Assembly (NCBI GenBank): GCA_018902385.1
Contig: JABSSW010000119.1
Span: 1-22,404 of the forward strand
DNA: 22,404 nucleotides
Direction: 5' to 3'
Source of the DNA: Physcia stellaris
Taxonomy: Eukaryota; Ascomycota; Lecanoromycetes; Caliciales; Physciaceae
Below the pieces are notes generated by a model, which did not search any database, had not been told where the DNA came from, and saw only the letters and a program-made list of their open reading frames with translations. How positions within the stretch are numbered: position 1 is the stretch's first letter; each line of letters begins with the position of its first letter. The translations under genes and the position numbers were made by a program. Of the stretch, positions 1 through 21,011 are shown in pieces.

Positions 1-551
1 TTTTTTTCGCGAACGTCGTTTTGACGATTCGTTGTTGTTTCGAAATTGAAAAATTTTGTTGAAAATTTTGTTGATTGATTTGAATGTTTGCAAATTTCAA
101 AAATTTCACGATTATCATTTTCATTTTCAAATATTTCGTTATTGTTTCAAAATTCGATAAAATTTGACAACAATTTTGAAAATGTTTTTGACACGATTCA
201 ATTTTCATGCGACGTAAATTTTGATTGTAAATAACATCGAAACGATAACGAAAATTAAAAATTGCGAAAATGTTACGAAAATGAAATCGAAATGAATGTA
301 TTGAATTCGAAATTTTCAGAATTTTAATCGAATGTAATTTCGATTAATGCCAATATAACGATTTTTTTCGAAAACGACGACGATTCGTTGAAAATTTAAT
401 TCGTTAACGACGTTTTGAAATATTGAAATTAACGTTTTGAACGATTTTGAATTTGCAATCGTAAAATGAATGCGATAAAAATCGTTCATCACGTCGCGAA
501 CATTATCGGAATTTTTTGTTGTCGATATAATATCGTGTTCGATCGTGCGAT
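1..551. repeat. AT-rich mutated repeat DNA, unidentified
   Basis: No gene is visible here. The sequence is almost devoid of CC, CT, AG and GG, with only scattered exceptions, while CG, CA and TG are common. This is the same signature as the gypsy element beyond 2500. Because the LTR element at 552-2496 has target duplications on both sides, this stretch was contiguous with 2502 onward before that insertion. It may therefore be the 3' part of the minus-strand gypsy element, but no LTR or polypurine tract could be recognised in it. Confidence 0.6.
547..551. repeat. Target site duplication, left copy (GCGAT)
   Basis: It matches ACGAT at 2497-2501 in four of five bases. In the right copy the variable base follows the terminal A of the LTR, so an original G there would have been ApG, the mutated context, and would read A as observed. 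Confidence 0.65.
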
Positions 552-736
552 TGTTACGAGCATGTCTGAGAAAAAAATCTCGATTGAAATTTTATCTTAT
601 CAGCGAGAATTCATATGAGAACTAGTGTGACTTGACAGCATTTCTACTTCTGACATTCGATCATCGTGTACATATTTCTTTCTAGATCAAATATTCTCGT
701 TTCTGCTATCTATTGACTCGGGGCGCGTCATTGACA
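552..736 (+). repeat. 5' LTR of the 552-2496 element
   Basis: This 185-bp repeat aligns end to end with 2311-2496. By eye about twelve of the differences are C/T or G/A transitions, each at CpT or its complement ApG. A few others, near the 3' end and around the CTTTC block, do not fit that pattern. Termini are TG and CA. Confidence 0.82.
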
Positions 737-1227
737 TAATATTTGATCTTCATCGTGACGAGCGATGTAAACTTCACACTCGCTCATCGTCGGCGAATAG
801 AAAGAAACACGACGATCAATTCGTGACGATTTCATTTTCAGCACGAAATCTCGGTCAATTTGCGACGATGACGTCTTCAACGCAATTTCTTTCTATCAAC
901 TGCAATGACGATGATTCATTGTTTACAACACGACGATTTCTCGCTTTGAGTTTTGCGAGATTAACTGACATTCGTCAAACTCTTTGTCTCGAATAGATTG
1001 CTCGTCGAAATACGCGAGTAAACAAAATAAAATCGCCAAAATGTGAAATTCTTTTAGAAAAAGATCACGAAAGCAACAGAACGAATCTTCGTGAGTTGAA
1101 TGAAATTTACATAGAGCATCTTCAGATCAACGAAACGAAAATTCTTTTGCGAAAAGTCACGAAATCACAAATCGAATCTTCGTGGTGAATAAGAACAAAA
1201 CGAATTTTCACGAAACGAAAATCTTTT

Positions 1228-1378
1228 CTTTGAAAGCGATGATTGCATCTCACTTTCACTTGACGTATCGTGAGCCAACGAGAATGATCGTGAATCTGCG
1301 TTAATGAAGAAATTTACTCTTTGAAGACGATGATTGCGCTCTATTTTCACTTGACGTATCGTGAGTCTGCGAAAATGA
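1228..1378 (+). repeat. 60-bp direct repeat inside the non-autonomous element
   Basis: The segments 1228-1287 and 1319-1378 align without gaps over 60 bases. They share TTTCACTTGACGTATCGTGA and most of the preceding GATGATTGC block. Several differences are transitions. No coding function is apparent. Confidence 0.7.
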
Positions 1379-1856
1379 CAATCAATAGACGATCTTCATG
1401 CTTTCTCGAGCCGATCAGCTCATCTATTTTCGAATGATCTCTACAATAATCGTCTTTTGAAGCGTTGAAACATCGCTTGATACAGAGAGAAATAGGAAGT
1501 TACACACACTCATCAAATCATTTACATCTAACTATCTCAAATCAACAAACAATCACTCAAAACATCAAACAAAAAAATTTGAATTCCGCTTCGCTTCGTC
1601 AGTTCTAACGATCTGCTCGCTTCAATGACATCTAATGAGTTCGCTACAACGACTAGTGAATCTGCTTCAATGAAATTTTAGTGAGTCGACTAGAACGATC
1701 TCAAAACGCATGCGTTCGATTCTTTACATCTCTGCAATCAACATCAAAAATGAATCTATTACATACAACGATACGAGCAAATGACATGAAGAAATGAAAA
1801 ACAACAATCAATGTAAATCTGTCACGCAATCAACTCAGTTCGTCTTCTTCACAAAT

Positions 1857-1876
1857 CTCTGTCTGTCTGTCTGTTT
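1857..1876 (+). repeat. (GTCT)n microsatellite
   Basis: Four to five tandem GTCT units lie within the interior of the non-autonomous LTR element. Confidence 0.85.
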
Positions 1877-2291
1877 GTCGTCAACATTTTCTGTTCAATA
1901 GTTTGCAGTCAATCAGAACGCGCCGATTAATAAGAACTCGAAAAGTTCAAATTCGAGAAATTTGAAACAACATATGTTTGCGAAATCGATATCGCTTTCT
2001 GCTGTTTTTGCTTTTGCTTGATTCTGAAACATCGATCGTTTCATCATACTAATTTGCAAATATCTTCGCGATCAAAATTCTCAACAAGATTCTCATTTCG
2101 ATTGCTTTGACATATATATTCTGTTCTCGCTCTCGTTTTCTGTTTTCGAATTTATTTTTCTACGTTTATCGCATTTGCGTCGAAACTTTCAGCGTCAATC
2201 ATGATCAAACAGATATCTAAATCACAATCGATGAATTTCTTCGCAATGCCGATCGATAAAAAAAATGAATATTCGTTTCGAAACGAAACTT

Positions 2292-2310
2292 GAAAAAAAA
2301 AAGAAAATAA
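2292..2310 (+). other. Polypurine tract of the 552-2496 element
   Basis: A run of G and A interrupted by one T abuts the first base of the 3' LTR. This is where plus-strand priming occurs in LTR retrotransposons. Confidence 0.6.
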
Positions 2311-2496
2311 TGTTACGAGCATGTCTGAAAAGAAATCTCGATTGAAATCTTATCTTATCAGCGAAAGTTCATATGAAAACTAATGTGACTTGACACACAT
2401 TTTTACTTCTGACATTCGATCATCGTGTACATATTTGCTTTCTAAATCAAATATTCTCGTTTTTGCTATTTATTGACTCAGACACGATCATTGACA
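2311..2496 (+). repeat. 3' LTR of the 552-2496 element
   Basis: This is the partner of 552-736, starting with the same 18 bases and ending CATTGACA. It lies directly after a purine run and directly before ACGAT, the altered copy of the target duplication. Confidence 0.82.
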
Positions 2497-2501
2497 ACGA
2501 T
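2497..2501. repeat. Target site duplication, right copy (ACGAT)
   Basis: Immediately follows the CA end of the 3' LTR. It pairs with GCGAT at 547-551, with a single G-to-A difference in ApG context. Confidence 0.65.
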
Positions 2502-2854
2502 CAATTCAATCAATTAACACGATATTGAAAACGATTGTAATGATATCGAAATTTCAAAATATCGTTCATTTTTCATTCGAAATTTTCGTTAATTATGACA
2601 AAATCAAAAAATTCATTAATTTGATTTTCGAATGAATCACGAAAATTTTTGCGCAAAAATCAACAATAAAACACATCGTAAATATGTATGATTTCAAACA
2701 ATTCGAATCGATATGAATTGTTCATACGTTGTAATATTTTGTAAAAATTTAATTTTTGTCGTCGAATTTGTCAAACGATTTGATCGTTTTGATGTTTCGT
2801 CGATCGAAAAAAACGAAATTTTTTTCGACGTATTTTACGATTTTTCGATGTTTG

Positions 2855-3928
2855 TTAATTTGAATTGTCATACGTTTTTAAGTCATTTTTGCATGATTTC
2901 GTACGTAATTGAAAATATTTTGCATTGTGTCGATAATATTTTTTGTTTTGACGATCAAAAATCGTTTTTTCGTTATAACGTACGAAATAAAATTTGATGA
3001 AAAAATTCATACGAAAATGAAAATCTTTATTGATGAAAAATGAAAATAATTTTGTTGTTGCAAATATTGCGTTGTTGTTTGCAAATTCGATCATAAACAA
3101 TCAAACGTTTTAATCGTTTTGCATGTAATTGTAATATTGTCGCAATTATTTTTCGATATTTTGATTGATTTTTTCGATTTGTTCATCGATTTTTGAATGA
3201 AAAACGATGAAAAAGTTACATTTGATGTCGAAAATTCGACAAAATATTTGTCAAACGAACGATATGAATTGAAAATTTCGATCAAACGTTATCGAAAAAA
3301 ATAATTCATGCGTACGAAATACGTAATTAATGAATATTTTGATCGTGATTTCAACATTGATATTTTCGTCGTCGACGATACAAAACACGTAATGACGTTT
3401 TTTATTAAATTTGTCAATTATCGTGCATATAACATTATGATCGTGAACGTCGAACAATTCGATAATGAAATTCATTGATATGTCGATTCAACGTTGCAAA
3501 AATATAATTAAAAAATAAATAAATCGTTTTTGCGATTTTTGAAAATTTTCGTGCGTTGACATTCATAACAATTACGTACGTATTGACGAATCGTTTTACG
3601 CATGTTGAATCAATAATAATCGCGACGTATAAAATTTTTCATGCGATTAAAATTTGAATGTTTCGAAACAAAAAATTCATGAATTTTTTGAAAAAATCAA
3701 CGAATAAAAAACATCGACGAATATTCAAAATCGATTTTTTCGATACAAAACGTCGTTTTTTTCAATGCAATTTCGTAAATCAATTTCATTCATTGAAATG
3801 AAATTTTGTTCGATAATTTCACGATAAATCGTGCAATCATCGTCAATTTTATTGACAACAAAAATTCGTTCATAAATAAATTCGTCAATTTTTATCGCGT
3901 GAATTTCGAATCGTTTCGAAATAAACAA
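2855..3928 (-). pseudogene. Ty3/gypsy integrase remnant
   Basis: The piece at 3928-3725 with NKIDDDCTIYREIIEQ and NDVLYRKNR is the segment before the zinc-binding region of gypsy integrase. The piece at 3475-3251 is the catalytic core: MNFI (normally MDFI, so the first catalytic Asp is Asn), then IIDKFNKKRHYV, YVFRTHELF and DRNFQF, where the family has DRGPQF. The piece at 3100-2855 starts with FANNNAIFATTKLFSFFINKDFHFRM, the conserved segment after the core. The Gly-Pro to Asn-Phe change in the core is the direct result of GGNCC becoming AANTT. A chromodomain could not be identified. Confidence 0.82.
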
Positions 3929-4439
3929 TATTTGTTTTCGATATTAATGTCGTTCGTCAATATCGTTTTTTGATCGTGAATCAAACATACGAATCAAAAC
4001 ATTTGTTTTAACGTTTTGAATTTCGAATTGAAATTGAATGATAATATTGAATTTCAAAAAAGTTTTTGTTCAACGAATTTGACGAAAAATTAATTTCTTT
4101 GACGTCATGAAAATTTTTAAATTTTTGTGATCGATGAAAATTTTGATCGATTTTTCAATGTTTTCAAATTCAAAACGTCAATGTTTTAAACAACGAATAA
4201 TAATCAACAATTTTTTGTTATAAATTTCGTAATTGCATTCGATTGAAATCATGTTGCGATTATAAAAAACGACGAAATGCAAAATTTTTCGTCGTCGTAT
4301 TGAAATAATATTTTCGCATTGACGTAATCAAAAAAATCAATTTTTAAAATGATTTGTTTGATTCGATCGTAATGTCGTAATATGAAAATTTCGATTATCG
4401 TTTTTTTGAAAAATTGAAAATTTTTTCGATTTTAACAAT

Positions 4440-5588
4440 TCATTCGAAATTCACGAACTTTTGATCATTCGAATGAAAATTCGAATTTTTTTTCGAAAAA
4501 TCACGAATGAATCGTTTGTAAAAATTGACGAAATTCACGAAAATTTGCATTTTTTCAAATTTGTAAAACGTTTTCAATTAACAATGATTTTTATTTTTTT
4601 CGAATTCATGCGAAAATCATTCATCGATAATATGACGTTCAAAATGTCATTTTTTTTTGAAAAATTCGCATTTTTCAATATTCATTTGTAATTCGATTTT
4701 TTTGAAATTTTTCAACATTTTACGAACGTGAACGATGTTTTTTTTTGAATTTGTTGTAAATGAAAATATTATTTAAATAAATTTGACAAAAATCGTTCAA
4801 AAAATTGAACAACAAATCGTTTATATAATGTTGTCAATTCGCGAATTCGTTGATCGATTCGAAAAATAATATTCGATATTTGTACGATTTCATGAAAATA
4901 ACAAATGTGATAAATTTTTCATTTTTTTTTCATTCATTCGAAATTTGTTAAAAATCGATATGATATTCAATTTGATCAAATATTTGCAATTTTGCATTTT
5001 AATTAAAAATTTTTCGATCAAAAAAATGAAATATCGATTGCGTTTCGTGATGTGATTAAATCGTCGATAATTCACACACAAACGTAATTGATCATTTGAT
5101 TTGATTGCAAATAAAACGAACGAAACGTATGTTGTTTAATTGAATACGATAAAACTTTTTTTGAAAATTATTTTTCAAATATTTTTTGAATTTTTGAAAT
5201 TTGAATTCGAACAAAAAATATATTCGATTTCGAAACAATGTATTGTTATCGTTTAAAAATTCGATTTTGTGATCGTAAATTCGATACGACAATAATTCAA
5301 TTATTTTTTGAAAATCGAATATTTTTGATAAATGTTTGAAATATTTCGATATTTTTTTCATTATACGTTCAAAAATCGATTTGATTTGTTCGTGTTTCAA
5401 AATTTTTTGATCATGACGACAATTTTTAACGATTCAAAATTTGTTCGCAATGTTTTGAATGCGAAATCGATTTGATTGATCGTAATGAAAAAAACATTGC
5501 ATTTTTTGTTTTCGATTTTTTGAAATCGACGAAAAAACAAAAAAATCGCATCAATTATCGCGATATTCATCGAATCGTTTGAATTCAA
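4440..5588 (-). pseudogene. Ty3/gypsy reverse transcriptase remnant
   Basis: The piece at 5588-5397 with MNIAIID and KCNVFFITINQID resembles the linker before fungal gypsy RT. The piece at 5400-5092 with LSYRIYDHKIEFLND and KKFYRIQLNN matches the start of the RT domain. The piece at 5081-4890 with CVNYRRFNHITKRNRYF and YLIKLNIISIFNKFRM matches the region carrying the first catalytic Asp, which here reads Asn. Around 4690-4500 the minus strand reads NIEKCEFF and later FVNFYKRFIRDF, the end of RT and the connection. Stop codons interrupt it throughout. RNase H should lie between about 4440 and 3930 but was not resolved. Confidence 0.78.
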
Positions 5589-6071
5589 TTTCGAAAATGA
5601 AAAAATTTCGAATTGTTGTTTTTTGATTTTTCAACGTTTGTTGCGTTGTTTTTTCAATTTTTTTTTAACGAATGTCGTTTTCGTAATCGTTGTGATATCA
5701 ATTTTTGAATGATTTGATTCAACGACGAACGATTCGTCATTTTGATCGATTTTCGAATGAATAAAACAATCGAAATATTTCGAATCGAATACGTTTGATT
5801 CGTTCTGTACATAAAACGTTGAAAAATTAAATTGCGAACGAAATAAAATTGTATATCGAAATTTTATTAACAATATGTTTCGCGTTATTTGTTTTCGATA
5901 AAAAACATCGCGACGTCAATTAAATACGTTTTATCGACGATTTAAATCAAAAATTTTCAAACGTCGAATTTGTATTGTTTTGATGAATATATTGTCATAA
6001 TGATTACATTTGAACGATTTGAAAATCAATTTATCGTAAATCATTTTCAAAATAATTTCATGTTTGTTCAT

Positions 6072-6442
6072 TCACGATTTTTTTTTAAAATTATCGAATG
6101 ATTGTTCAAATCGATGATGAACAAAAAAAATTGTCAATTCGAAATGCAAATCAATTATCAATTTGAAATAAATGACATGAATTATTGAAAAAATTTGACG
6201 ATCGTCGAATTCGATAATGAATTTCGATTTTAATAAAAATACGAAATTCATGTTCAACATGTTGCATACAAATTGCGCAATTTTTTTTTATCAATGAAAA
6301 CATAATCAATTGCATCAATGTTTATTAAAATTTCTAATTTATGTTTATTATCGTTGAATGACAACGTACAATTGATGATTAAAAATCGTTTGACAAAAAA
6401 ATCAAACAATTCGTCATGATGAATAAAAATTTTTTTAAACAT
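6072..6442 (-). pseudogene. Ty3/gypsy aspartic protease remnant
   Basis: The minus-strand peptide around 6442-6254 contains CTLSFNDNKHKLEILINIDAIDYVF. This aligns with the fungal gypsy protease core, in which a DTG catalytic motif follows a hydrophobic strand. Here the triad reads Asn-Ile-Asp, so it would be catalytically dead. The following peptide (6260-6072), with EFDDRQI and DLHFELTIFFV, matches the segment usually found between the protease and the reverse transcriptase. It lies between Gag and RT, as expected. Confidence 0.7.
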
Positions 6443-6659
6443 TCATCAATCGCGTTTTTGATGTAAATTATTAATTTTTCGAATCAAATTCGTTCGATTC
6501 GTTGATTATGTTCATGTAAAACATTTGCATTTTGTGTTAATAACGTTTTTAATGTTTGTGAACGTTCAAACATTTTTTCATACGTAATCAATTTTATCGC
6601 ATGTAAAACATTTGTTCGTGACGATCAATTTGTTTATTATCGAATCACAAATTTTGATT

Positions 6660-8105
6660 TCAACGTTGAAATGAAAATGAACGACAAATTTCACGAAAAA
6701 ATCGAAATAACAAATTTCGTAAAAAACATCGAAATCGAAACGACAAAAATTGATTTAAATTGAAACAATTCAAAACGTTGTTGACGTGTCGCGATTTTTT
6801 TTTTCGAAAATTTGATTGTCGATTGTATATTTGTTGCAAAATGATTCGAATTTCGTCGAACGTAATGAATTCGCGAAAATATACATTCATCGTTTTTTTC
6901 AAATTTCAAAAAAAATTTTCATTAATTTTTCGATTTTGATGATTTCGTTATAATCGATTGAATTGTTAAAACGAAAGAAAATAAAATAAAAAAATTGAAA
7001 ATTTTGAATATTCATGATTAATGTTCGAAATTGAATACGCATATTGCGTTTGAAATCAAAATTTTCGAAAATGAAATTCAAAAATTTCAATATTATATGT
7101 CAATTTTGAAATGATTTATGTCGATATCACGTATCGATTGTATGTGATCGTCGACATCATTTTCAATTCAATCAATCACAATAATGATTGCGATTATGTT
7201 CGTGTCGTAATGATCGACGTTAATCGTCATTTTATCATGTATTTTTGTTTTTCAAACACGTCAAATAAATTTCATTTCGTCGATGAATTTAAAAAAAATG
7301 AAATGAATTTTTGAACGTCGTTTGTTTTTATTGAAAAAATTAATTACGTTGATTTCGTCGTCGTTGTTTTCATCGTCGTCGTCAAAATTTCGTGTACGAT
7401 CGCGAATCGTGATTAACAAAACGTCATAATTTTTTAAAAAATGTAATCGTATTGTTTGATTAAAAATCGATCACGCGTTTGTTCGTAATTAATTTTCAAT
7501 GTATTCATTTTTTTACGAATTTCATCGAATTGACGTTTGTATTGATCAATTCGTCACGATCGACGTTGACGATATTGTACAAATTTCGATATTAAATCAA
7601 AACGTTCAAATAATTGTCACGATCAATGCGTAATCGATCAAATTTTTCAAAAATCGATGATTTTTGATTGATTTATCATTTCAATTGATCGATAATGACG
7701 ATATTCAAAAAATGAATGATTTCGTTATTTTTCATTTTTATGAATTCGATCGTTGAAACAAATCGACGACGTTTGAATTGTTCGACGAAATTTTCGTCGA
7801 AAAAATTGTCATTGATTTCGTGTAACATACGATTCACATTGAAACGTAACGTTTTGAAACGTTGTTTCATCGAAATAAAAAATTCGAAAAAAGTTGTTTC
7901 GTGATGATTTCGAATCATAATTAAAAATGAAAAATTGAAAAATAATAAAAAAAAAATTAATCGAATCAATTTTTTTTATCGTCGAAAATATCGTCGTTTG
8001 CGTGAAAATTCGATTTGTTATTTTACGATTTTCGTCAAATGTTTCGTCAAAAAAATTTTGATCGTTTGTTTGATTAACAAAGTTTTTCGTCGTTTGTTTC
8101 GTCAA
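6660..8105 (-). pseudogene. Ty3/gypsy Gag remnant
   Basis: On the minus strand, a basic, hydrophilic N-terminal part lies about 8105-7676, including MKQRFKTL and NRMLHEINDNF. A capsid-like region lies about 7320-6900. In it can be read peptides such as KRNMRIQFRTL and RFNNSIDYNEI, which resemble the conserved end of fungal gypsy capsid domains. Several frames and stops interrupt it. The 7090-6899 segment is the longest clear piece. A C-terminal zinc knuckle expected before the protease could not be found. Assignment rests on position upstream of the protease and on residue patterns. Confidence 0.6.
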
Positions 8106-8149
8106 AAGAATTTGATCGATTTGAAATTTTATTTTTGAACGTTCGCGTA

Positions 8150-8400
8150 TTACGACGAACGATAAAATTGAAAATTTATTGTAATATCATGAATCGTGTT
8201 TGAATAAACGTATTATTGATTAATTAAACGAAAACAATAAATTTGCAAAAACAAATAAATACAAAATGTTGAAATTGCAAACAATATGCGACGTCAAGTT
8301 TCAAATCACGTTAATTTCAACGTAAAATTAAAACATAATTCGTTGTTCGATCACATATCATATCAATTATTTACAAGTTTGCTCGTGAATTTTTTCAAAA
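8150..8400. repeat. AT-rich mutated sequence, no gene
   Basis: This transition zone between the Gag remnant and a less mutated island is still largely free of CC, CT, AG and GG. If the gypsy element's 5' leader or LTR survives, it should be here or just beyond, but no terminus is recognisable. Confidence 0.5.
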
Positions 8401-9248
8401 TTCCATGCAGCGCTTAAAATTAAAGTTAAATCTGATAAGATTGCGATGTTGTGCGAAAAGAGCTCGAGCTAGATCGCATTGAGCAAGAGTGTCGCAAAGT
8501 CGCAGATTCGGAGATTTCCAATGTTTGGTTTCTGAATTGCAAAATCGCAGTCATTTGATCATATTTTCGAAACATAGCATGATTTCGAATCGGATTTGAT
8601 GCGATTTGAATTTGACAAACACGTGATATTTGAATTGCAGACACGCATATGGTTTGAAACAATGTTTTTTATTTTCACTCATTGATAAGACTATATAGAT
8701 AAACGTCAAAGCTTCGTTGAATATCGTCGTACAAGTTTTCTTTTCTAGATCAAATCTACAGTATTTGACAATCTTTCTCGTAGCATTATTCGCATCATGA
8801 TCTCGTCGTTGACTCGAATCGTTGTGATCAAAGAAGAATAAATCATCGATTTAATTACAGCAAAGAAACTATTGCGATTTTTTCAGTCTCGATATCTTGT
8901 AATTCAGACGAAAATAGCAACTTGATAAGACGAATTGATTCATTCAACATCGCTGCAATGTCTATCTGTAAAATCGATTTTGAATAATGTCAATCGAAAA
9001 CGTTGCGAGCGATTCATTTCTCTTTTGTATATGTTGAATATTTTAGAGACTTCGACTTGTTTCACGTTTCATCAATATACAAATATTTGACGTTTTCAAG
9101 TCTGTTGCTTTTTTTGACTTTGTTTTTGCTGAGACACGATCTGAATCTTGATATTTTCGTTGATTGTGTTCTCAAAAACGACATCGAATAAAGAGCGACA
9201 AAAGATAACAGAATTTTGAATTCGAAAATGTATGCGATCGATTTCGAA

Positions 9249-9545
9249 TCAAGTCATATCGTTCAAATCGTTGACGATATAATGAAACTTTCGAAATTGA
9301 ACGGATGATTGTTCATTGACTTGAAATGAGTGACAAAATCGAAAAAGAATGCATATATTTTCGATATCAAGAATTGAGAGTTCTGAGTTGGATTGTTGTT
9401 GTTGCTGAGCAATGAGTTGATTTTGAGCGAGCAATTGTCGAGACTGTCGATGTTTCTTTTGTTTTTCTCGCTTTCTCTGCTCTCGTAATGCCGCTTGACG
9501 TTCTTTTGCAGTGATAGACAGATCGAAATCCAGAGTAAATTGCAT
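9249..9545 (-). CDS. Possible small basic coiled-coil protein
   Basis: This 98-residue minus-strand frame begins at an ATG in the less mutated island. Residues about 13-35 are a run of Arg, Lys, Glu and Gln (KERQAALREQRKREKQKK), followed by a Gln-rich stretch (QLLAQNQLIAQQQQQ). This is a typical short coiled coil with a nucleic-acid-binding charge pattern. The C-terminal 45 residues are of unclear nature. No family was recognised. It is not rich in stops, unlike its surroundings, but it lies within a repeat, so a retrotransposon-derived leader or gag fragment is the likeliest origin. Expression is not demonstrated. Confidence 0.3.
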   Translation of the reverse strand: MQFTLDFDLSITAKERQAALREQRKREKQKKHRQSRQLLAQNQLIAQQQQQSNSELSILDIENICILFRFCHSFQVNEQSSVQFRKFHYIVNDLNDMT

Positions 9546-9660
9546 GATGAATGTGAGATGCTTGAAATAATGTTTCGGAAATGAACGTGTTTTGGATAGT
9601 GAACTCGGAATTGATTTCTCGGCAACAATTTCGCGTGTAGAACTATTTGTTCATCTCATA

Positions 9661-9808
9661 ACTATTGCGATAATGAGTCGATTTCTGTTTTTATTGCAGC
9701 GTTGAATTGCGTTCGTTCTGCTCTACAATTTAGGCTAGATAATTGAAAATCATATGTGATTGTTTGTTGATGTGCAAGCTGCGAAATACTGCATGGACGC
9801 AATAGTCG
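9661..9808 (-). repeat. Dispersed repeat, copy 1 (minus)
   Basis: The reverse complement aligns with 10261-10400 and 11631-11777. Shared blocks include TCATTATCGCAATA, ACAGAA (as CAGAA) and the CATCAACAAACAAT region. This copy is the least mutated of the three. The plus strand reads VDVQAAKYCMDAI, reminiscent of the AKELWDAL-type segment of copia Gag, but this is a weak clue. Confidence 0.6.
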
Positions 9809-9931
9809 AATTTTGATGTTCGTGATTTGAATTCTGAAGATTCTGTGCTTTCTAATCAAGCTAGCGTCAAAACTGAAGAGAAAACGCAGAATATTTTATT
9901 ATAAGAAAATTTTATTTGTCAAATCTATTTG

Positions 9932-9949
9932 TCAGACATGCTCGTAACA
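9932..9949 (-). repeat. LTR-like terminus in inverted orientation
   Basis: The reverse complement of this segment is identical over 18 bases to the starts of the LTRs at 552 and 2311. The sequence beyond is only loosely similar (a shared ATTTT, then CTTAT), which suggests a related subfamily rather than the same element. Confidence 0.65.
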
Positions 9950-10260
9950 AAAACAAAAACATCAAATTTCATCGCATTTTCATTCACAATCATTTCGTGT
10001 GTACACAAATTCATGAAATTATCAAATTGTAAAATTAATTGAGCGCATTTCAACGCATCAACAATCGCATTAATTCGAACAATATTGAATTTGTTATGAA
10101 ATTTGAAAATAAAATGATTTTCGAATTCGTCGAATTTATTTCGCAAATCAAAATCTTTTTCGTTAAATTCGATGTTTTCATCAATTGAAAATTCAAATTT
10201 TCAAAGAAAAAATATATCATTGTTTATTGAATTTAACACGAACATCGAAATTTTTGTGAT

Positions 10261-10400
10261 CATACAATTGTTTTGCACTTTGTACATCAAACAACAATCA
10301 CATTTGACATTGATCTGCTGAAATCAAATTATAAAACAGAATAAACGCATTTCAACGCATCAAAAATAACGAAAATCGATTCATTATCGCAATAGTTACG
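10261..10400 (+). repeat. Dispersed repeat, copy 2 (plus)
   Basis: Aligns along its length with 11631-11777 and, in reverse complement, with 9661-9808. The most conserved part is AAAATCGATTCATTATCGC at the 3' end. The 18-base block CGCATTTCAACGCATCAA inside it also occurs at about 10044-10061, which hints at a further partial copy. Confidence 0.7.
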
Positions 10401-10445
10401 ATTTATGTAAATTATTTGATTTGCAAATTCTTTGCAAAATTTCAT

Positions 10446-10498
10446 TTGTTTATTTATTTACGTATTCATTTATTTATTTATTTATCTATTTATTTACT
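10446..10498 (+). repeat. (TTTA)n microsatellite
   Basis: An imperfect tandem array of TTTA or ATTT units with a few single-base interruptions (CGTA, TCTA). Confidence 0.9.
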
Positions 10499-11630
10499 CA
10501 CGCGAAATTGAAATTTCTCAAACAATTGCGTTCGTCATGAAAAGTTTTTCGATTTCGATTTATGCAACAATGTTCGCTTTCGAAAACAAATCAACAAACA
10601 CGTCAAAAAACGAAAAATTCGAAAAACATCGAAAACGAATTACTTTTTTTTTTTTTTTCGACGATTCAAATCGTTTTTTCACGAAAGTTTATTCTTATTG
10701 TCGACAAACAATTTGTTAAAAAACATAATTTTATTCAATATATTCACGATATGAACAATGTTGACAAAAATTACGATATATCATTTTTCATTCAACGTTT
10801 TACGAAAGACATTTTCTCATTGAAAATTCATTGCGAAATCAACAATTAACGTTTTGCAAAGTTTTACAACACGAAATTATTGAACAAAATAAAGAGTGAT
10901 TAAAAAACACGATTGACGAACATTTCGAAATTTTCGATCGATATCAAAAAATCACGATATCAAAACATTCGAAATCATTTGTTTTCGATTTTGCAAAAAA
11001 ATTCGATTCGACGTTTTGATTTTTCATATTTTCAAACATTTCACGACGACAACGACGAAAACGTTAAAACAGAATTCGCTTTTACATTGAAAATTTTCGA
11101 TCGATATTTGAATTTGAAACAAAAGAAAAAAATAACACGATCAATTGAATGTTTTTAAAACGTTTCAAAAACGAAAAATTGAATCATGATCGACTTTTTC
11201 AAAATCATCATAATCGATCATGAAATGAAATTGTTGAAAAAATCGAAAACGTTTTCAATCATTTCACGTTTTTGCAGAAATTATGTTCAGATTTGATCAA
11301 AACATTGTTGTTTTTCAAAAGACATTCAGATAATTTTTGTTTGCAAACGTTGTTGAAAATCGTCGAAAAGAAAAATCATTTTGCAATTTTCAAATGTCAA
11401 CATATGTACATAAAATTCAGAATGATCGATATTAGAACAAATACATTTTAATATTTTATTGCGTTATATTCAATCGAAAATCATGATATGTTTCGAAAAT
11501 GTGATCAAATGATTGCAATTTTTTGCAATGCAAATTTCATGTTTGACATTGAAATTTTCAAATTTTGCGATATTATTTTTTGATTTGATTAATTCAAAAT
11601 CTTTTTGATGTTCAATCATCGAACTTATTG

Positions 11631-11777
11631 CGTCATACAGTTGTTTCGCATTTTGCATTTCAATCAACAATTACAACGATTTTTCATTTATTTAGTCAAA
11701 ATTGTAAAACAGAATGACACGCAAAATATTTCAACGTCGTAAAAATAACAAAAATCGATTCATTATCGCAATAATTT
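11631..11777 (+). repeat. Dispersed repeat, copy 3 (plus)
   Basis: Starts CATACAGTTGTTTCGCA and ends with ATCGATTCATTATCGCAATA, in parallel with copy 2. Its minus strand is the start of an open frame (11670-11470) reading MQNAKQLYDAISSM, similar to the matching part of copy 2 (SAKQLYD). The repeat may therefore derive from a coding region, possibly Gag of a copia-like element. Confidence 0.65.
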
Positions 11778-12132
11778 TGAAATTTCAAAAGTACGTCGTT
11801 GTCAAATTTGTGTTCGTTTCGAATTTTTGCAATTTTATCAGATTTGATTTTAATTCTAAAATTTTCGACAAAGTTTTTTAAAAAAACTTTCGAATTTACT
11901 TGTTATTTTATAACAATATATTTTTCAAATTGTTATAATTTTTTTTTTTGAATTTTTTTTCGTTAAATTTGATTTTTCGTTTGTATTAAATTTTCGAATA
12001 CAAATAAATCGAATATTATTTTTGTTATAAAATAATCGTAACATAATTCGTAATAATTTATCGTTAATCAACGAAAATTATGCGAAAAAAATATGATTCG
12101 AAAAATTATTTTTTTATCGAATTTTTTAAAAG

Positions 12133-12137
12133 ATTTT
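12133..12137. repeat. Target site duplication, left (ATTTT)
   Basis: Identical to 15016-15020. Choosing LTR ends at TGTTGG and TTTCAATA makes the flanks agree perfectly. Ending the LTR at the more usual CA would give ATAAT on the right, which does not match. Confidence 0.8.
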
Positions 12138-12335
12138 TGTTGGAAATACAGCCTCCGCAGGTGTGCTGCAGTCAGGATCCAGTTGGTATAATCTGACGAA
12201 AGAAGGACTAGTGCGTCCTTGTTGGGACTAGTGCCTTGGCACCCGCACACTTCTTGTGCTCTCACCTGCATGTATGTTACTAGAATAACGAGATTCAAAG
12301 CAATAGAATGGTAGTCATTCATACATCTTTCAATA
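12138..12335 (+). repeat. 5' LTR of the 12138-15015 element
   Basis: Differs from the 3' LTR by four clear transitions, each in CpC/CpT or GpG/ApG context, by a small indel in the A-rich GACGAAA run, and by a more divergent stretch of about 20 bases before the final TTTCAATA. Confidence 0.93.
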
Positions 12336-12351
12336 GATTATGAGAATCGAG
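12336..12351 (+). promoter_or_regulatory. Primer-binding site, methionine tRNA anticodon arm
   Basis: The first bases after the 5' LTR are GATTATGAGAATCGAG. The complement reads CTCGATTCTCATAATC, which is a GATT/AATC stem closing the seven-base loop CTCATAA with CAT anticodon. It therefore matches the anticodon arm of a methionine tRNA, not a 3' acceptor end. Copia-type elements are known to prime from internally cleaved initiator tRNA, and this site is of that kind. Which methionine tRNA is used cannot be decided without the host tRNA genes. Confidence 0.7.
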
Positions 12352-12696
12352 TTAGCAACTTTCGCTACATCTAGTACCAGCTACAGCAGCATGTCGGAGC
12401 ACACGAAGCAGTAGTATCTAGCCGCAGGCAGTACAAAAGTGTACACACGCAGTAATCAACTCAGTGAAGTATCCAGTCTTGTCAGACCCGAATTGACTCA
12501 GTTGCATTGGCAGCATTCAGTACCTTGGTACAAATCAGTACATCCAGTACCCTCAATTACATCGGTAACACCTACCTACCCACCTAACGAATCCTTCGCG
12601 AATTCGACCTACCTATCTACCGACCTTACCTTACGAACTCGCGTATCACCTACTCGGACCTCTACGCAAAATCTACCTACGTATCACGCAGTCAGA
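12352..12696 (+). other. Leader of the young LTR element
   Basis: Between the primer-binding site and the probable gag start lies a pyrimidine-rich leader with many CTAC and CTACC units (12570-12680). An open frame runs through it from 12439 to 12855, but upstream of 12697 it is low-complexity (Ser, Thr, Pro, Tyr) because of these repeats. It is better read as untranslated leader, where packaging and dimerisation signals usually lie. Confidence 0.45.
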
Positions 12697-13903
12697 ATGG
12701 CTGCCTTTACTCCTACTTATGCGAGTCCCGCACTCGCATCTACTCCTACTCCGCGGCCACGTCCAAATCGGCGCCCGTATCCTCCACCTCCGAACCTGAC
12801 CTCTTACCTTTTTCGTCTGCCCTTTGCGACCACGTGCCTGAAGGCCACCCCATGACGCGAGATCTAAAAACGCTCTATAGCATGCACCTGACTGGGGATG
12901 CTAAGGCTTTAGATGCAGTTGGTTCACTCAAGCGAAGAGGGCACAAGAGAGTTATCATTTACGAAAGCATGAGTTGGAGGTCAAGAACAAACTCAAGGAG
13001 GAAATGAAGCAGTTGACAAAGCAAAAGGAGGAAGCCCGTCTGGTCAAGAAACGGGCTGAAGGATATACTTGTCGGCGTTGCAAGAACAGTACGAAATTTG
13101 ACGGCAACATCAAGCTTCACGAGCATATTCGTACTCGTCATGCAAAGAAGTCGAAGGCAGTTGTTTCGCCCTCTGCGCAGGCCTCAGAACCGAAGGCTGC
13201 TTCGCAGCAGTCAATGCTCTCATCTTCTTCGTCATCTCAATCGGTCATCTCGTCAGCCCCTACGTCACCGAAATTAGTAGCCGAGTCAGCTACTCTATCT
13301 CTTCGAAACCCTCACTAGAATCCTTGTCGGTTGCAACACCAGAAAACCGATATTCTGGGCAGAAATTGCCTCACGATCAGTCGTTGCATTCAAGTTTTCA
13401 CGTCTCTCGATTGCGACACCCAAATCGGTGTGCAAATCCTCGGAGAATGCAAGCGTTGCTTGCCCGCCCCTCCGCCTCGAGCACCTACACCATCGAGGCC
13501 CTATCTCACTGTGGACGACCTGTTCCGCATGTTCGCAGGGAAGCCGAGTCCATTTGGCCTGCAGCGGCACCAAATGCGCTCGTTTTCTCCTCTTCGGCCC
13601 TGGCAAATGCAGTCCAGCAAGCAAATGTGGCCCCATACAAAGCCGCATTACGTCATACTTCCATGCGGTGGCCTCACCTGCTTCCAAATCCCGGCCAAAT
13701 TCGAAGCATTTGCACCAACGCATGACTCGGTTAAACAGTCGGCCCGCACATCACCTTCCTTGTTTCGCCCTACTTCTCGATTTGCTTCGGTGCGCCCTCT
13801 TTCTCGGCATTCTCTCGCCCTTCTTCTGTTTGCAGGCATTGTCAAGGGCGTTTTGCCACTATTGGCCTACTGGCTGGGCCACGCCAAATGCCTCAAGATT
13901 TGA
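12697..13903 (+). pseudogene. Gag-like gene with C2H2 zinc finger, frameshifted
   Basis: The likely start is ATG 12697 (MAAFTPTYASPALAST), in a Pro/Thr-rich segment. Coding character then moves to a second frame at about 12740-12925 (SAPVSSTSEPDLLPFSSALCDHV and MTRDLKTLYSMHLTGDAKALDAV). It moves to a third frame at about 12935-13310: a Lys/Glu-rich coiled-coil-like helix, then the zinc finger YTCRRCKNSTKFDGN...HEHIRTRH with Cys-X2-Cys and His-X4-His spacing, then a Ser-rich linker. After 13310 it passes through two frames to KPIFWAEIASR and KSVCKSSENASVACPP, and finally to SRPYLTVDDLFRMFAGKP around 13497-13550. A protein split over five frame changes cannot be translated normally. The finger and YLTVDDLFRMF block look like a fungal repeat-encoded family, recalled only loosely. 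Sequencing indels are an alternative explanation. Confidence 0.65.
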
Positions 13904-14331
13904 GAACAATGAGATACCCATGGGGCAGCGCTATTGGAGTTTCGCTCCTCCCCGCCCTGCTTTGGGGAGTATTGACCCCTCCTGAAGTCACTACTTTGGG
14001 GGAGTTAGCATGTTGTTTGTTTGTTGTTTGCCCGCCCGCCCTCCTATTAACCGTTGATCGGCCTGGGGGACTAAAAGTTGTTGTTATTTTAATGGATTCG
14101 GTATCCCGCCCCTCCCGCCTATTTCGGCCTGGGGTGCTTTTAAAAGTTGTAGTATGCTTTGTTTATTTGTTCATTGTTTCACGAATTTGTAGGGACTTAC
14201 CTCTGTTGTGGCTTCGTCTTGATCTAACACGACTAATTAACGCCTCTTTCCCTACTACCCTTGAGGCTTAGCCGCCCGATAAATACGAGGGGAGAGAGTG
14301 AGATCGTTAGAACGGAGGAGGAACAGACTAG
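13904..14331 (+). other. Non-coding interior of the young LTR element
   Basis: There is no recognisable domain. The sequence has G- and T-rich blocks with related phrases (CTTTGGGGGAGTTAGCATG, CGGCCTGGGG twice, TAAAAGTTGT twice at about 14071 and 14141), suggesting internal duplication. A frame from 13888 to 14271 crosses it but shows only hydrophobic low-complexity sequence. Confidence 0.45.
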
Positions 14332-14461
14332 ATAGTACGACTTCGGGGGAGCGTACTATACAGTCATTGCTAGGAGTCACGTCAATACCGCTTCGGGGAG
14401 CGTATTGAGTCTATTACAACAGGGCTTGATGCCAACTAGTACCGCTTCGGGGAGCGTACTA
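14332..14461 (+). repeat. Three hairpins with covarying stems
   Basis: Three units share the core CTTCGGGGAGCG (the first has one extra G) but have different flanking arms that remain complementary. The arms are ATAGTAC/GTACTAT (14332-14338 with 14353-14359), TCAATAC/GTATTGA (14382-14388 with 14402-14408) and TAGTAC/GTACTA (14437-14442 with 14456-14461). Units 2 and 3 add an inner GCT/AGC pairing after a bulged C, leaving a TCGGGG loop. The compensated change in unit 2 is good evidence that RNA or DNA folding is selected. The function is unknown, but packaging or export is a reasonable guess. Confidence 0.75.
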
Positions 14462-14486
14462 TGCAGTCATTACACCTCGGCCTTGC

Positions 14487-14540
14487 AGAGCAGGAACTCG
14501 GTCAAGAAGGACAAGAACTCGATCAAGAAGGACAGGAGAT
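14487..14540 (+). repeat. Tandem 21-bp repeat, Glu/Gln-rich if translated
   Basis: AACTCGGTCAAGAAGGACA is followed by AACTCGATCAAGAAGGACA. In one frame it gives ELGQEGQELDQEGQEISDLFAY then a stop. This could be the tail of a coding region or a chance reading of the repeat. Confidence 0.55.
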
Positions 14541-14640
14541 ATCTGACCTTTTCGCATACTAATCGACCTGATTCTCTGCCAGGTCTTAGTTAGGTCAGAA
14601 AAGCTCGTTTCTGCAGTCTTCGCATCGGTGCATGACCTCA

Positions 14641-14813
14641 CCACGTTGGGGAGCTTGCTCAGAAGCTCAGGCAATACGTCGCTGGGGGAGCTCTAGGATA
14701 CGCATCGCTGGGGAGCTACATCGCTGGGGAGTTACATCGCTGGGGAGCTTGCACGGAAGCTCCAGGCTCGATAGGATACAGGGCAGGTGGCACAAGCGGT
14801 TGCTGTGGGGGAG
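14641..14813 (+). repeat. GCTGGGGAG repeats leading into the polypurine tract
   Basis: Units of the type ATCGCTGGGGAGCTAC recur at about 14687-14750 with small variations, preceded by a related CGTTGGGGAGCTTGC. The last G-rich run, GGGGGAG at 14807-14813, abuts the 3' LTR and is the likely polypurine tract. The upstream copies resemble it and could act as extra priming sites. Confidence 0.65.
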
Positions 14814-15015
14814 TGTTGGAAATACAGCCTCCGCAGGTGTGCTGCAGTCAGGATCCAGTTGGTATAACCTGACGAAAAGGAGGACTAGTGCGTCCTTGTT
14901 GGGACTAGTGCCTTGGCACCCGCACACTTCTTGTGCTCCCACCTGCATGTATGTTACTAGAATAACGAGATTCAGAGCAATAGAATGATAGTACGCCCAC
15001 ATGATTCTTTCAATA
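14814..15015 (+). repeat. 3' LTR of the 12138-15015 element
   Basis: The 202-bp partner of 12138-12335. It follows a G-rich polypurine tract and is followed by the ATTTT duplication at 15016-15020. Confidence 0.93.
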
Positions 15016-15020
15016 ATTTT
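15016..15020. repeat. Target site duplication, right (ATTTT)
   Basis: Perfect partner of 12133-12137, directly after the 3' LTR. Confidence 0.8.
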
Positions 15021-15650
15021 TAACAATCGAATAATCAAAAAATCATTTATTTTTTAATCGTTTTTCAAAAATTCAATTATTAAATATGAAAAACTATTTA
15101 TATTATTTAAATAATGAAAATATCAAATTTATATACATTGATTGTTTTATTATTTGTTTATTTCAAACTATATATTTTTCGATAAAAATAATAAAAAACA
15201 ATTAATTTTGTAATATTGTTTCATTACGACGTCGAAAATGTGCAATAATCATCAATTTATAAATTATCAATTTATTTTTGAATTTTATTACGATTAACAA
15301 TTGTCAATAATTGTATTTAAATTGTCGACACGAAATCAATCGATAAAATTAAATGTAAAATTTCAAAAATTCGATATCGATATTATGTTAAATAAAAAAT
15401 GTTATTCGAATATAATTTCGACGATTGTTGATTAACGATAAATAATTAATTATTTAAAGTTAATTTTTTAAAAAATTTTCGTTTATTAAAATAATTATTT
15501 TGCATAATTATATTGTTAACATAACGTTCGTGACAATCATGTCGAATAAAATTGTTGATTCTTATACTATTTATATTTGATTTTCTTTTATAACATTTAA
15601 CGAGTTAATCGATCAATCGATTAATTTAAGAAAATATTCTTTGAATTGAT
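15021..15650. repeat. AT-rich block resumes
   Basis: Very AT-rich, with few CC, CT, AG or GG. It continues the DNA interrupted by the element at 12138-15015. No gene or retroelement motif is recognisable. It grades into ordinary sequence between about 15560 and 15700. Confidence 0.6.
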
Positions 15651-16260
15651 ATGATTTATTTGATCATGATGATTCTTTTGATTCAGATTCGTGTGCTCAA
15701 TCAACAATCTCGAACAACATCAAAAACATATTCGAGAAACTCTCATAAGAGTTGAATGTACGTATTTTGATCTTGTTCAATCCTGAAGACGTGAAAATCC
15801 GTTCTAGTGCGGTTTCGTGTGTAACAAAAAACGACCAAGGAAGAATTAATAATAATAATAAGACTCATGCTACAGAAGACTCTTGATATGGGTCCGAAAG
15901 GATATCATACAGGAGTCAACGATACTCCATAATACTCCTTATTAGTCCCGTGAAATCATGCATGGGAAACCTGAACGACAAATCATCTAAGCAGTATGTA
16001 ATTATATTAATTCGATGTAGTATGACAATTCACGATAACAACGCATAGTAGTGTATCATACGACATCGTGTCTTACAGTACCTAAGGTACTGTACCCACA
16101 ATAAAGCTGGATGACGATGAAAGCAGGACAGCTCATCTCTAATGATTCGATGCAAGGTTGTACCGTGAAACAATATCTTATTCCTAGGTCGGACCTCCGC
16201 GTTTTTACAGCATTTCTGTAATCACTTGGTCCAAGAAGAGTGGAAGAACATCACATTTGG
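15651..16260. other. Transition to ordinary DNA, no gene
   Basis: Composition becomes balanced. The phrase GTGTGTAACA at about 15818-15827 could be an LTR end (TAACA) closing the repeat block, but no start was found. There is a short ATA/AAT microsatellite near 15848-15860 and a perfect inverted repeat at 16074-16094. Confidence 0.4.
16074..16094. repeat. Perfect 10-bp inverted repeat
   Basis: Arms TACAGTACCT and AGGTACTGTA are separated by a single A. It could be a binding site for a dimeric protein or a small hairpin. No adjacent intact gene is present to give it meaning. Confidence 0.6.
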
Positions 16261-16267
16261 TCTATTT

Positions 16268-17990
16268 CTAAGTTGTACAGGTTGTGTAAAGCTTGCATGT
16301 ACCCTGCCTAGGATCAAGCTTCAGTGCTGGCCTCGTGCTTCTGCTCCAACACTTGGCTGCAGAGCTTACTCCTCCTCTAAGGAAGCCCCCGTATCTCAGT
16401 AGAACAAAAGGAGCGATAGCCATGAAAAGTGTGACCGCTCCGAGCAGACTTGAAGCTCCGCTCACACCCAATGATGCATACAAGGGCCGTGCGAGCAAAG
16501 GTAAAACGCGCCGCAAATGCTTCGGGAAATAGCCGCTGAAGCCAACGCTGAGGCTGCGAGTACCATAACCGTCGCAAAGAACGCTTGTTAATGACATGAA
16601 TGTCAGCTCTATGCCCATTCCATATGGGACTCCAGCAAGCATTGGGATCAGCCAATGACATCCCGGTTTGGCAGACCAACCCTACAAGTGAGTAAATTGT
16701 CAGTGGAACTGTCATCATTGTCTGTTCAGTCTTACTCGCCCAGTATAAGCAGTAGCAAATGCACTGCACAGAGATCTACCACGCTACTCACCAGCCAGAA
16801 AGATAGCGAACAGAGCGGTCCACCAAGGCAGGCCAGCGGTATACGTCGATATTCTTCTCTCACGGCCCCGCTGCCATTCAGCTTGGCTCGCTCCATGTAG
16901 CGATCCCCAGCCCCACTACTATTCCCATGTCCTAAGCACCCTATCGGCACTTGGTCGTGGCCTTCTCCAGTTAGACTCGGATGTGTATCTCACTTGGGAT
17001 AAATGCCAACGCTGAGATGCCAGGGCTCATATGATAGACTCCTTCACGTAACATTAGTGTGGACAATCAAATACACACCTGGAGAACACCAGACTCTACC
17101 TTCGAATATTATCAGGTAAGCCTCAAAGAAAGGTAGAAGATAGCATATTCCAATGCCATCAAAAGACGTGGCCAGAACGATAGGCTCAGCAAAAGACGCA
17201 TTGGTCTAATAAGCGCCACTTTGAGTATTTCCATTGCCCCTTGTTTCTCGGTGCCGGTAATGTTGCAAATTCCGAGCCACTGCTTCGTTCGCGAGTCGCA
17301 CGAATACGCCACGCTTCTAGTACAAGGACCATATATGTTTCTGCATCTGTAGAATCTTACCGCAAATACTGTATGTAAGACTCACTTACCTGGGAGGAAC
17401 CATAGAAGGAATCCGGGAGACGGCCGCAATTATCAAGGCAATCAGTATTCCCACCTCCAGTCTATTGGCGCCACGAAGCCCGAAATTATGGGGCCCATTG
17501 CAGGCCCGATATTCAAACACTTCAAGCTTGTTAGCTGGCCATAAGCTATTGATATTTGCCGCTACTTACAATCATAAGCGCCATGATTGCTCTTCCTCTA
17601 TAAGCAGCATTTGAATAGACATCCGCACAGATCCCTCCAGCGAGGGTATACGGTGCTGATACCCATAAACCGGCGAAAAATCGGAAAACCAGAAGAGCTG
17701 GCCACGATGTTGCAAGTGCACAACAAAGTGTAAAGATGGTATATCCAGCGAAGGTTATCCAGTATGATTCTTCTCCCATACATCTCACTGAGGGGAAAAA
17801 ACAATAGGTCCAAAAGATATAACCTAAGAAAAACAGAGATGGGGAGTGCTAGCTGTTGTTCACTTGTGACTTGGAAATAGTCGGCCGTGAAGCTGATGGC
17901 ACCCCCAGGAAGCGACGAGCTGATAGCAGAATTGACAACTACAAGTAGGCTTGTGCCAATTACCAGGAGCTTCTTCGTCTGCCTCGCCAT
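16268..17990 (-). pseudogene. MFS transporter (DHA1-like) pseudogene
   Basis: Encodes a fragmented 12-helix major facilitator transporter of the fungal drug/polyamine H+ antiporter type. Reading down the minus strand: MARQTKKLL and a first membrane segment, then PLSEMYGRRI, matching MFS motif A after helix 2. Next come FAGYTIFTLCCAL, SWPALLVFRFFAGL and SAPYTLAGGICADVY, then GPIISGFVAPIDWRWEY near 17460. Then come AMEILKVALIRPMRLLL (17220-17170), YMERAKLNGS and EEYRRIPLACLGGPL (16895-16820), and finally IELTFMSLTS and LLGAVTLFMAIAPFVLLRYGG. Single-base frame changes separate many blocks, for example after EMYGRRI, so no full protein is made as the sequence stands. Introns with good GT..AG sites remain. 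Either a recent pseudogene or unpolished sequence fits. Confidence 0.85.
17520..17569 (-). other. Intron in the MFS pseudogene
   Basis: Begins GTAAGT, has a GCTAAC branch-like site and ends GAAG, 50 nt in all. It separates IMALMI from the exon with GPIISGFVAPIDWRW, which supports fungal splicing rules. Other likely introns are 17347-17389 (GTAAGT...ACAG) and 16682-16791 (GTGAGT...TGTAG). Confidence 0.6.
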
Positions 17991-18021
17991 TTAGTAAGAA
18001 CTCTACGCACATTCTGAAAGC

Positions 18022-18735: not shown

Positions 18736-18739
18736 GCAG

Positions 18740-20760: not shown

Positions 20761-20840
20761 AGTTCATAAGTCCTCCCTCCAACGGCACCTTCCTACTATC
20801 ATCCTCTTCGTTCACCATAGTAAGACCTTAAACTCTCACC

Positions 20841-21011
20841 ATGAAGCCTCTATGGTTACCTTTCACAAATCATCCTTCATACACACCATTACTCACGAAC
20901 AACATCAATACTGATTTACATTGCAAGAACATCATTCCCACTAATTCACACGCATCCATCACTTCAACCGTCCACGCCACCGTTCACTCCCCACCCGCAT
21001 ACGCAACATGA
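20841..21011 (+). CDS. Possible 56-residue small protein
   Basis: An ATG in a good fungal context (TCTCACCATGAAG) follows a pyrimidine-rich stretch (20770-20815) like those upstream of fungal transcription starts. The short frame is Thr-, His-, Asn- and Pro-rich (MKPLWLPFTNHPSYTP...) and ends at TGA 21009-21011. No family is known, and there is no signal peptide. It may be the 5' end of a decayed gene. Confidence 0.15.
   Translation: MKPLWLPFTNHPSYTPLLTNNINTDLHCKNIIPTNSHASITSTVHATVHSPPAYAT

Follow-up and report, generated by a model that had tools for sequence, protein, structure and literature searches.

Which process can remove nearly every cytosine that stands before a pyrimidine, on both strands, and keep most of those that stand before a purine? 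This question is raised by the AT-rich half of contig JABSSW010000119.1 of the ascomycete Physcia stellaris (assembly GCA_018902385.1), the first 22,404 nucleotides of which were analyzed here (hereafter, the window; contig C119 in a genome of 44 Mb and 147 contigs). An initial annotation, made from the letters alone, had described near-saturated C-to-T mutation at CpC and CpT in 1-12132 and proposed a process akin to repeat-induced point mutation (RIP) with an unusual 3' context. Our analyses support that proposal. With a probability of about 80%, we attribute the pattern to a RIP-like defense that causes C-to-T changes on both strands of transposon copies, mainly at C before a pyrimidine instead of at CpA.

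Dinucleotide counts confirmed the depletion throughout 1-12132, with observed/expected ratios of 0.05 for CC, 0.08 for GG, 0.35 for CT, and 0.29 for AG; CA (1.21), TG (1.22), and CG (3.12) were kept, and TA stood at 0.42. The same pattern was found in 15021-15650 (CC 0, GG 0, CT 0.26, AG 0.14, and CG 5.1), whereas all eight dinucleotides ranged from 0.83 to 1.15 in the gene-like DNA of 16000-22404. As had been noticed by eye, 2701-2820 holds no CC, CT, AG, or GG, and each C there precedes G or A. Counts for the whole of 2498-8373 were zero for CC and GG, six for CT, and eight for AG. Together, C before a pyrimidine (CpY) and G after a purine (RpG) occur 424 times in 1-12132, compared with 1702 (standard deviation 28) in 200 base shuffles, a deficit of 46 standard deviations; in 2498-8373, they occur 14 times versus 740 (standard deviation 19), a deficit of 38. 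Saturation is nevertheless uneven: it characterizes 1-551 and 2498-8373 and is nearly reached in 10050-12132, while 558-2496 and 8374-10050 have almost no CC/GG left and retain part of their CT/AG. The shuffles rule out base composition alone as the cause, and the normal gene-like DNA of the same contig rules out a bisulfite or assembly artefact. CpG methylation followed by deamination was also rejected, as CG is not depleted and instead exceeds expectation 3.1-fold in 1-12132 and 5.1-fold in 15021-15650.

The context of the changes was read in the family of a third long terminal repeat (LTR)-type element, at 12133-15020. Its little-mutated copy in the window served as the yardstick, and each C of this copy that was read as T in a relative was classed by its 3' base. 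Two relatives that are likewise little mutated (L036 and L037) contain both CC and CT and gave a background of 5-10% C-to-T in all four contexts. In the two most mutated relatives, the fractions rose to 68-81% at CpC and 41-49% at CpT, and stayed at 7-12% at CpA and CpG (L038: CC 216/266, CT 156/319, CA 24/321, CG 27/229; L040: CC 196/287, CT 132/324, CA 23/326, CG 23/242; Fisher p at most 2.2e-25 for either CC or CT compared with CA). Rates were lower in L039 (CC 174/279, CT 125/318, CA 20/325, CG 18/229) and L041 (CC 128/305, CT 68/342, CA 15/343, CG 23/254) because part of each copy is unmutated. When bins with at least 60% of CpC sites changed were pooled, a selection that inflates the CpC figure and the others not directly, the T fractions were 0.84 for CC (n=761), 0.48 for CT (n=855), 0.07 for CA (n=908), and 0.09 for CG (n=646). 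Within these bins, the 5' base had no clear effect (CC 0.80-0.88, CT 0.45-0.50; by trinucleotide, TCA 0.07, TCG 0.08, ACC 0.88, and TCC 0.86), and the second 3' base had little (CC 0.76-0.91, CT 0.46-0.50). The changes in this family are C-to-T and follow the 3' neighbor: strongly if it is C, in about half of the sites if it is T, and at background level if it is A or G. Alignment of repeat copies therefore bears out the dominance of CpC and CpT proposed in the initial annotation. Among the matches listed for the little-mutated L036 (39 of 216 candidates scored), no relative exceeded 84% identity over more than 1 kb. This suits an identity threshold for targeting, the threshold itself being our supposition. 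Eight short 5S genes also scored above the family cut-off.

The saturated element (family 1) has many copies in the genome. Window positions 2501-8000 matched at least 27 other places over about 1.5 kb or more, at least 19 of them over 5 kb or more; these are lower bounds from 25 scored candidates of 581, and a copy on contig C66 exists outside that list. Thirty loci were fetched with their flanks (L005-L034, of which L005 is the window; some overlap), and their observed/expected ratios were 0-0.63 for CC/GG and 0.02-0.41 for CT/AG, the higher CC/GG values in the profiled copies stemming from normal flanks. Twenty copies combined hold only four CC sites in their union. The union has 461 CT sites; leaving aside the 220 present in one copy only, each copy keeps between 4% (L007) and 51% (L018) of the other 241, at median transversion divergences of 0.4-2.8%. 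Mutation is thus orders of magnitude faster than transversion; from a copy 96% depleted of CpT at about 0.4% divergence, we estimate that CpT is lost roughly a thousand-fold faster. Sharing of kept CpT sites was tested among the ten copies with at least 40 of them, and L018 shared sites with the nine others near chance level (e.g., with L015, 41 versus 39.8 expected). The copies have thus been affected largely independently. A special case is the pair L021/L022, which has 64 kept sites in common versus 22 expected and was probably duplicated after being mutated.

The same family revealed a weaker component at CpA. With L018 as the reference for 19 other copies, C was read as T at 2603/2954 CT, 1381/13164 CA, and 440/13368 CG sites, and across six references the fractions were 66-88%, 9-14%, and 3-8%, respectively. 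Between the window and C66 over 2498-8370 (transversions 0.58%), differences affected 11/14 CT, 87/673 CA, and 38/770 CG sites. Compared with gene-like DNA, CpA changes are about four-fold up (87/673 versus 27/900, p 5e-14), and CpG changes are not clearly raised (38/770 versus 19/602, p 0.10). In the nested insert at 558-2496, CpA was not raised (10/507 versus 27/900, p 0.30). The earlier statement that only C before a pyrimidine is lost consequently stands as regards the dominance of CpC and CpT and the retention of CpG, but not as regards CpA in the saturated family. We read the order of preference as CpC > CpT >> CpA > CpG, with CpG at or near background.

DNA of similar age provided controls. 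Positions 1865-22404 of C119 are collinear with positions 1-20606 of C66, at the left end of that contig, over about 20 kb at approximately 95% identity in each stretch compared: 94.7% in 1865-8370, 95.5% in 11757-15339, and 95-96% in 15040-22404. The pair would be either a second haplotype or a segmental duplication. In the gene-like 16000-22404 (transversions 0.79%), transitions were flat across contexts (CC 16/696, CT 28/840, CA 27/900, CG 19/602). In the third element (transversions 0.87%; CC 22/358, CT 11/410, CA 7/376, CG 7/314), there was an excess at CpC (22/358 versus 25/1100 in the other contexts, p 0.0008). The excess clusters at the left end of the element (12243-12556), and 15 of the 22 CpC changes lie on the C119 copy. 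The nested insert was compared with its counterpart on contig C5 (transversions 0.7%), with CT differences of 32/187 and 29/188 in the two directions, versus 6/250 and 4/257 for CA and 9/238 and 3/222 for CG (summed, CT 61/375, CA 10/507, CG 12/460). Against C66 (615 bases), the same insert gave CT 24/54.5, CA 3/76.5, and CG 5/69.5. The CT excess between the C119 and C5 copies of this insert indicates that mutation has continued. At the similar transversion distances of the C66 and C5 comparisons, CpY changes track repeat status and not region: in the compared stretches, the mutation follows the repeat families.

Next, the window and the fetched loci were divided into 1101 bins of 250 bases to examine the order of loss; L004, L005, L033, and L034 were excluded as overlaps, while L042 and parts of other loci still overlap, so that some bins are counted twice. 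Mean CC/GG was 0.01 in the 501 bins with at most two CT/AG, 0.63 in those with 9-16, and 25.3 in those with at least 25. CA/TG counts were 33.3 in unmutated and 29.7 in saturated bins, and CG counts 13.8 and 15.9, respectively. These counts indicate that CpC is exhausted before CpT, and that CpA and CpG hardly change. The process is cumulative, and the 3'-pyrimidine rule holds with a refinement: CpC is mutated before CpT, and the nested layers of the window are at different stages. The family-1 host is more mutated than the insert at 558-2496, and the third element is hardly mutated. The right edge of the depleted DNA is likewise graded, with CpC loss extending further than CpT loss. Repeat similarity reaches about 15495 (in a search that skips very common words), CT/AG reappear from 15561 (one AG earlier), and no CC/GG occurs until 15781, i.e., about 290 bases beyond the last repeat match at this one resolved edge. 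Comparable graded edges were seen in the 250-base profiles of L013, L015, L023, and L025. Leakage of RIP into adjacent single-copy DNA has been reported (PMC4014442).

The layers of the window are listed in Table 1. In full family-1 copies elsewhere in the genome, the sequence of 1-551 is contiguous with that of 2498-8373; 1-551 is matched over most of its length in 22-24 of the 29 other fetched loci, and the body of the 558-2496 insert in one (L011, the C5 copy). A few host bases are repeated at the join of this insert. The same insertion in the same family-1 element was found at C5:690808-692744, and C66 carries the right end of it, which indicates that the stretch was duplicated after the insertion. 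The third element sits as an insert inside depleted DNA. Assignment of family 1 was attempted through its stop-free pieces. For 4893-5135, a PDB search with an E limit of 10 listed two sequences, both Ty3, a weak match by which family 1 would resemble Ty3 elements, and no Pfam match was obtained. The sole match of a second stop-free piece was a beta-lactamase at E 2.3. Ten stop-free pieces of family 1 had no Pfam match at E 0.01, and four pieces searched with an E limit of 10 gave a sole Colipase-like match by chance; among the open reading frames of the window, no Pfam match exceeded the cut-off. A short open reading frame at 12974-13318 has a zinc-finger-like Cys/His spacing, with a sub-threshold match to Ima1_N (E 0.0068).

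Table 1. Features of the window; the depletion index is (CpY+RpG)/(TpY+RpA)
Feature	Positions	Strand	Remarks
Family-1 Ty3-like LTR element (putative), 5' internal part	1-551		Index 0.01, saturated; contig begins inside element
Nested LTR-type insert	558-2496		Terminal repeats about 558-736 and 2316-2496; index 0.245
Remainder of family-1 LTR element	2498-8373		Ends in 189-base terminal repeat 8185-8373
Stop-free piece resembling Ty3 reverse transcriptase (weak match)	4893-5135	-	Best E 0.057
Other AT-rich DNA with some repeats	8374-10050		CC/GG nearly gone, CT/AG partly kept; index 0.228
Other AT-rich DNA with some repeats	10050-12132		Nearly saturated; index 0.041
Third LTR-type element, normal composition	12133-15020		Terminal repeats 12138-12315 and 14814-14992
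Depleted flank, graded edge	15021-15781		Repeat similarity to about 15495; CC/GG absent to 15781
Gene-like DNA, normal composition, control	16000-22404		One long match (C66), elsewhere short ones only

The genome was also searched for the RID/DIM-2-type methyltransferase genes that the initial annotation had suggested looking for. A search with PF00145 yielded three genes, on contigs C3, C5, and C6, and the methylase domain was confirmed by Pfam in each. The C3 gene has a long frame with DUF7893, and its best match among solved structures is 9bap (E 2e-181), a DNA cytosine-5 methyltransferase of 1456 residues; we read this gene as DIM-2-like. The proteins encoded on C5 and C6 are related to each other; both carry a PPCQ motif and either EQT or EET, on which grounds we take them to belong to the RID/Masc1 class. 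An apparent intron lies at the same position in both members of this RID/Masc1-like pair (L001 and L003), pointing to a putative old duplication.

Common RIP indices are built on the change from CpA to TpA, and they do not respond here. TpA/ApT was 0.37-0.44 in the parts of 1-12132 and 0.72 in 15021-15650, so that no depleted part passes the RIPCAL cut-off of 0.89 (PMC2621366), and (CpA+TpG)/(ApC+GpT) was 1.18-1.60 in these parts. None of the 23 one-kilobase windows of 1-12132 passed RIPper-type thresholds. Repeats saturated at CpC and CpT here score as RIP-negative, which shows that such mutation can escape the indices. Its coding effect also has a signature of its own: Trp TGG can turn into the stop TGA, and TAG nearly vanishes. 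In the six frames of 2498-8373 there is one TAG versus 394 TGA and 289 TAA, as expected from the removal of AG.

Could the pattern have arisen in another way? Classical CpA-type RIP acting on ancestral elements of odd composition would be compatible with the RID-like genes, with mutated repeats typical of RIP-proficient ascomycetes, and with the weakly raised CpA of family 1. However, it is CpC and CpT, and not CpA, that are strongly mutated against the little-mutated yardstick, and TpA/ApT is low, whereas CpA-type RIP raises it. With CpA mostly kept, classical RIP is refuted as the dominant process in the three families that were examined, and we give this explanation virtually no weight. C-to-T changes at C beside a pyrimidine also resemble dipyrimidine damage, as UV light would cause, or the work of a cytidine deaminase (APOBEC/AID or other). 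UV and APOBEC-type agents mainly read the 5' neighbor. Here, the 5' neighbor has no clear effect, as the trinucleotide fractions given above illustrate, and the gene-like DNA of the same contig is unaffected; agents of this type were accordingly rejected and are very improbable. A slow decay, in which the CpC and CpT sites of repeats carry (non-CG) methylation and 5-methylcytosine deaminates spontaneously without an active mutator, would likewise follow repeats and produce C-to-T changes. The DIM-2-like gene and the continuing loss of CpT after copies separated would fit it as well. On the other hand, CpT loss exceeds transversion by an estimated three orders of magnitude (4% of CpT kept at 0.4% divergence), CG is at 3-5 times expectation and not depleted, and the third element, although inserted in depleted DNA and 0.87% in transversions from its C66 copy, shows a slight CpC excess only. 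We regard slow decay as unlikely.

Several observations weigh against a RIP-like defense of the kind proposed, or at least against its simplest form. The gene-like part shared by C66 and C119 has no CpY excess, in a pair collinear over about 20 kb at 95%; the two contigs may be haplotypes, or the process may now be idle, or not every duplication may be targeted. L039 and L041 each change from heavily mutated to unmutated DNA part-way along, at about element positions 2150 and 1600. Among third-element copies, transversion distances are similar whether or not a copy is mutated, so that neither age nor distance explains which copies were mutated. Kept CpT sites coincide more often than expected in several family-1 pairs from L013-L017 (L014/L013 16 versus 8.2, L013/L016 15 versus 7.5, L015/L017 34 versus 24.0), and independence is thus incomplete. 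Finally, since CpA is raised in the saturated family, the preference is one of degree. The misfits of C66/C119, of L039/L041, and of the third-element copies might reflect haplotypes, an interruption of the sexual cycle, recombination, or truncated partners. A past mutation of this same kind, with the machinery or the sexual cycle now inactive, would account for the untouched gene-like part of C66/C119 and the nearly untouched third element. Against inactivity speak the family-1 copies that are young by transversions yet saturated and the CpC excess between the third-element copies of C66 and C119. This variant overlaps with the preferred explanation, so that their odds do not add up, and we hold it to be a minority possibility.

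How, then, does a RIP-like defense aimed at C before a pyrimidine compare with known systems? Neurospora crassa RIP, which acts through RID with DIM-2 as a second route, shares with the present case the both-strand C-to-T changes in repeats, the dependence on the 3' neighbor, and genes of RID and DIM-2 type. Its preference is CpA>CpT>CpG>CpC (PMC5496416), i.e., CpA first and CpC last, unlike the order found here, and its threshold for duplicates is 80% over 400 bp (PMC3017866). An alignment of Neurospora Tad1 is nonetheless reported with CpT changes above CpA, in the RIPCAL work that lists CpC-to-TpC as a possible class and finds CpA dominant in S. nodorum (PMC2621366). In Trichoderma reesei, where repeat-targeted C-to-T changes also have a non-Neurospora preference, CpA and CpG are about equal, followed by CpT>CpC (PMC5496416), so that CpC is last there and first here. 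In a transposon survey, signatures at CpA, CpT, and CpG are described, and CpC is not mentioned in the main text; the three species with a CpT signature show CpA as well (PMC4352252). Magnaporthe oryzae, Botrytis cinerea, and Sclerotinia sclerotiorum are described as having CpT as the main or second target and RID/Masc1-family genes, as here, but the CpA signature is present in them as well. In LARD elements of RIP-capable fungi, CpT-to-TpT is reported as dominant in alignments (PMC7882544).

Precedents for CpC are fewer. Monilinia is reported to combine classical CpA changes with CpC-to-TpT double changes (PMC8959702); going by that account, which also concerns Botrytis and Sclerotinia, CpC is involved as here, but CpA-to-TpA is the main change there, whereas here it is CpC to TpC with CpA minor. 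The nearest CpC precedent appears to be Coccidioides, in whose repeats CpG and CpC are especially affected according to a review (PMC9409882); CpG is affected there and kept here. A table for Rhizoctonia AG8 gives CpC changes as the most closely spaced of the four contexts, the accompanying text naming CpG (PMC4014442). As described for Basidiomycota, CpG-type RIP-like mutation is non-CpA C-to-T mutation as here, but its target is the context best kept in our data. Of the 242 changes reported in duplicated regions from Zymoseptoria crosses, 240 were at CpA (PMC10294615), and RIP-like defenses are concluded to share a CpA preference in a survey covering 1,239 genomes (PMC12543289). In an open-access literature search, we recognized no description of CpC>CpT with CpA and CpG largely spared, which by itself does not show that the pattern is unpublished. 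Partial precedents thus exist, and we class the process as a variant of the RIP kind, not as classical RIP: both-strand C:G-to-T:A transitions are present in repeated DNA next to flat gene-like DNA, the genome carries RID/Masc1-family methyltransferases (two genes, by motif), and, in place of a CpA preference, CpC and CpT are the targets, with a weak rise of CpA in family 1.

As for the mechanism, a RID/Masc1-type cytosine methyltransferase, of which there would be two paralogues, might be the agent, perhaps together with the DIM-2 homologue. Its target recognition would have shifted to a 3' pyrimidine, and it would act on closely similar duplicates before meiosis, in the sexual phase and over several cycles. 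That one of the two RID-type paralogues has come to target CpC/CpT instead of CpA, which would make this a complete RIP system with its preference almost inverted, is a tentative proposal to which we assign slightly less than even odds. If it is true, lineages of this kind count as RIP-free in index-based surveys, and RIP would be commoner than thought and its specificity would evolve more readily. The two RID-like paralogues, together with the clean 3' rule, make it testable which region of a RID protein senses the nucleotide that follows the target C.

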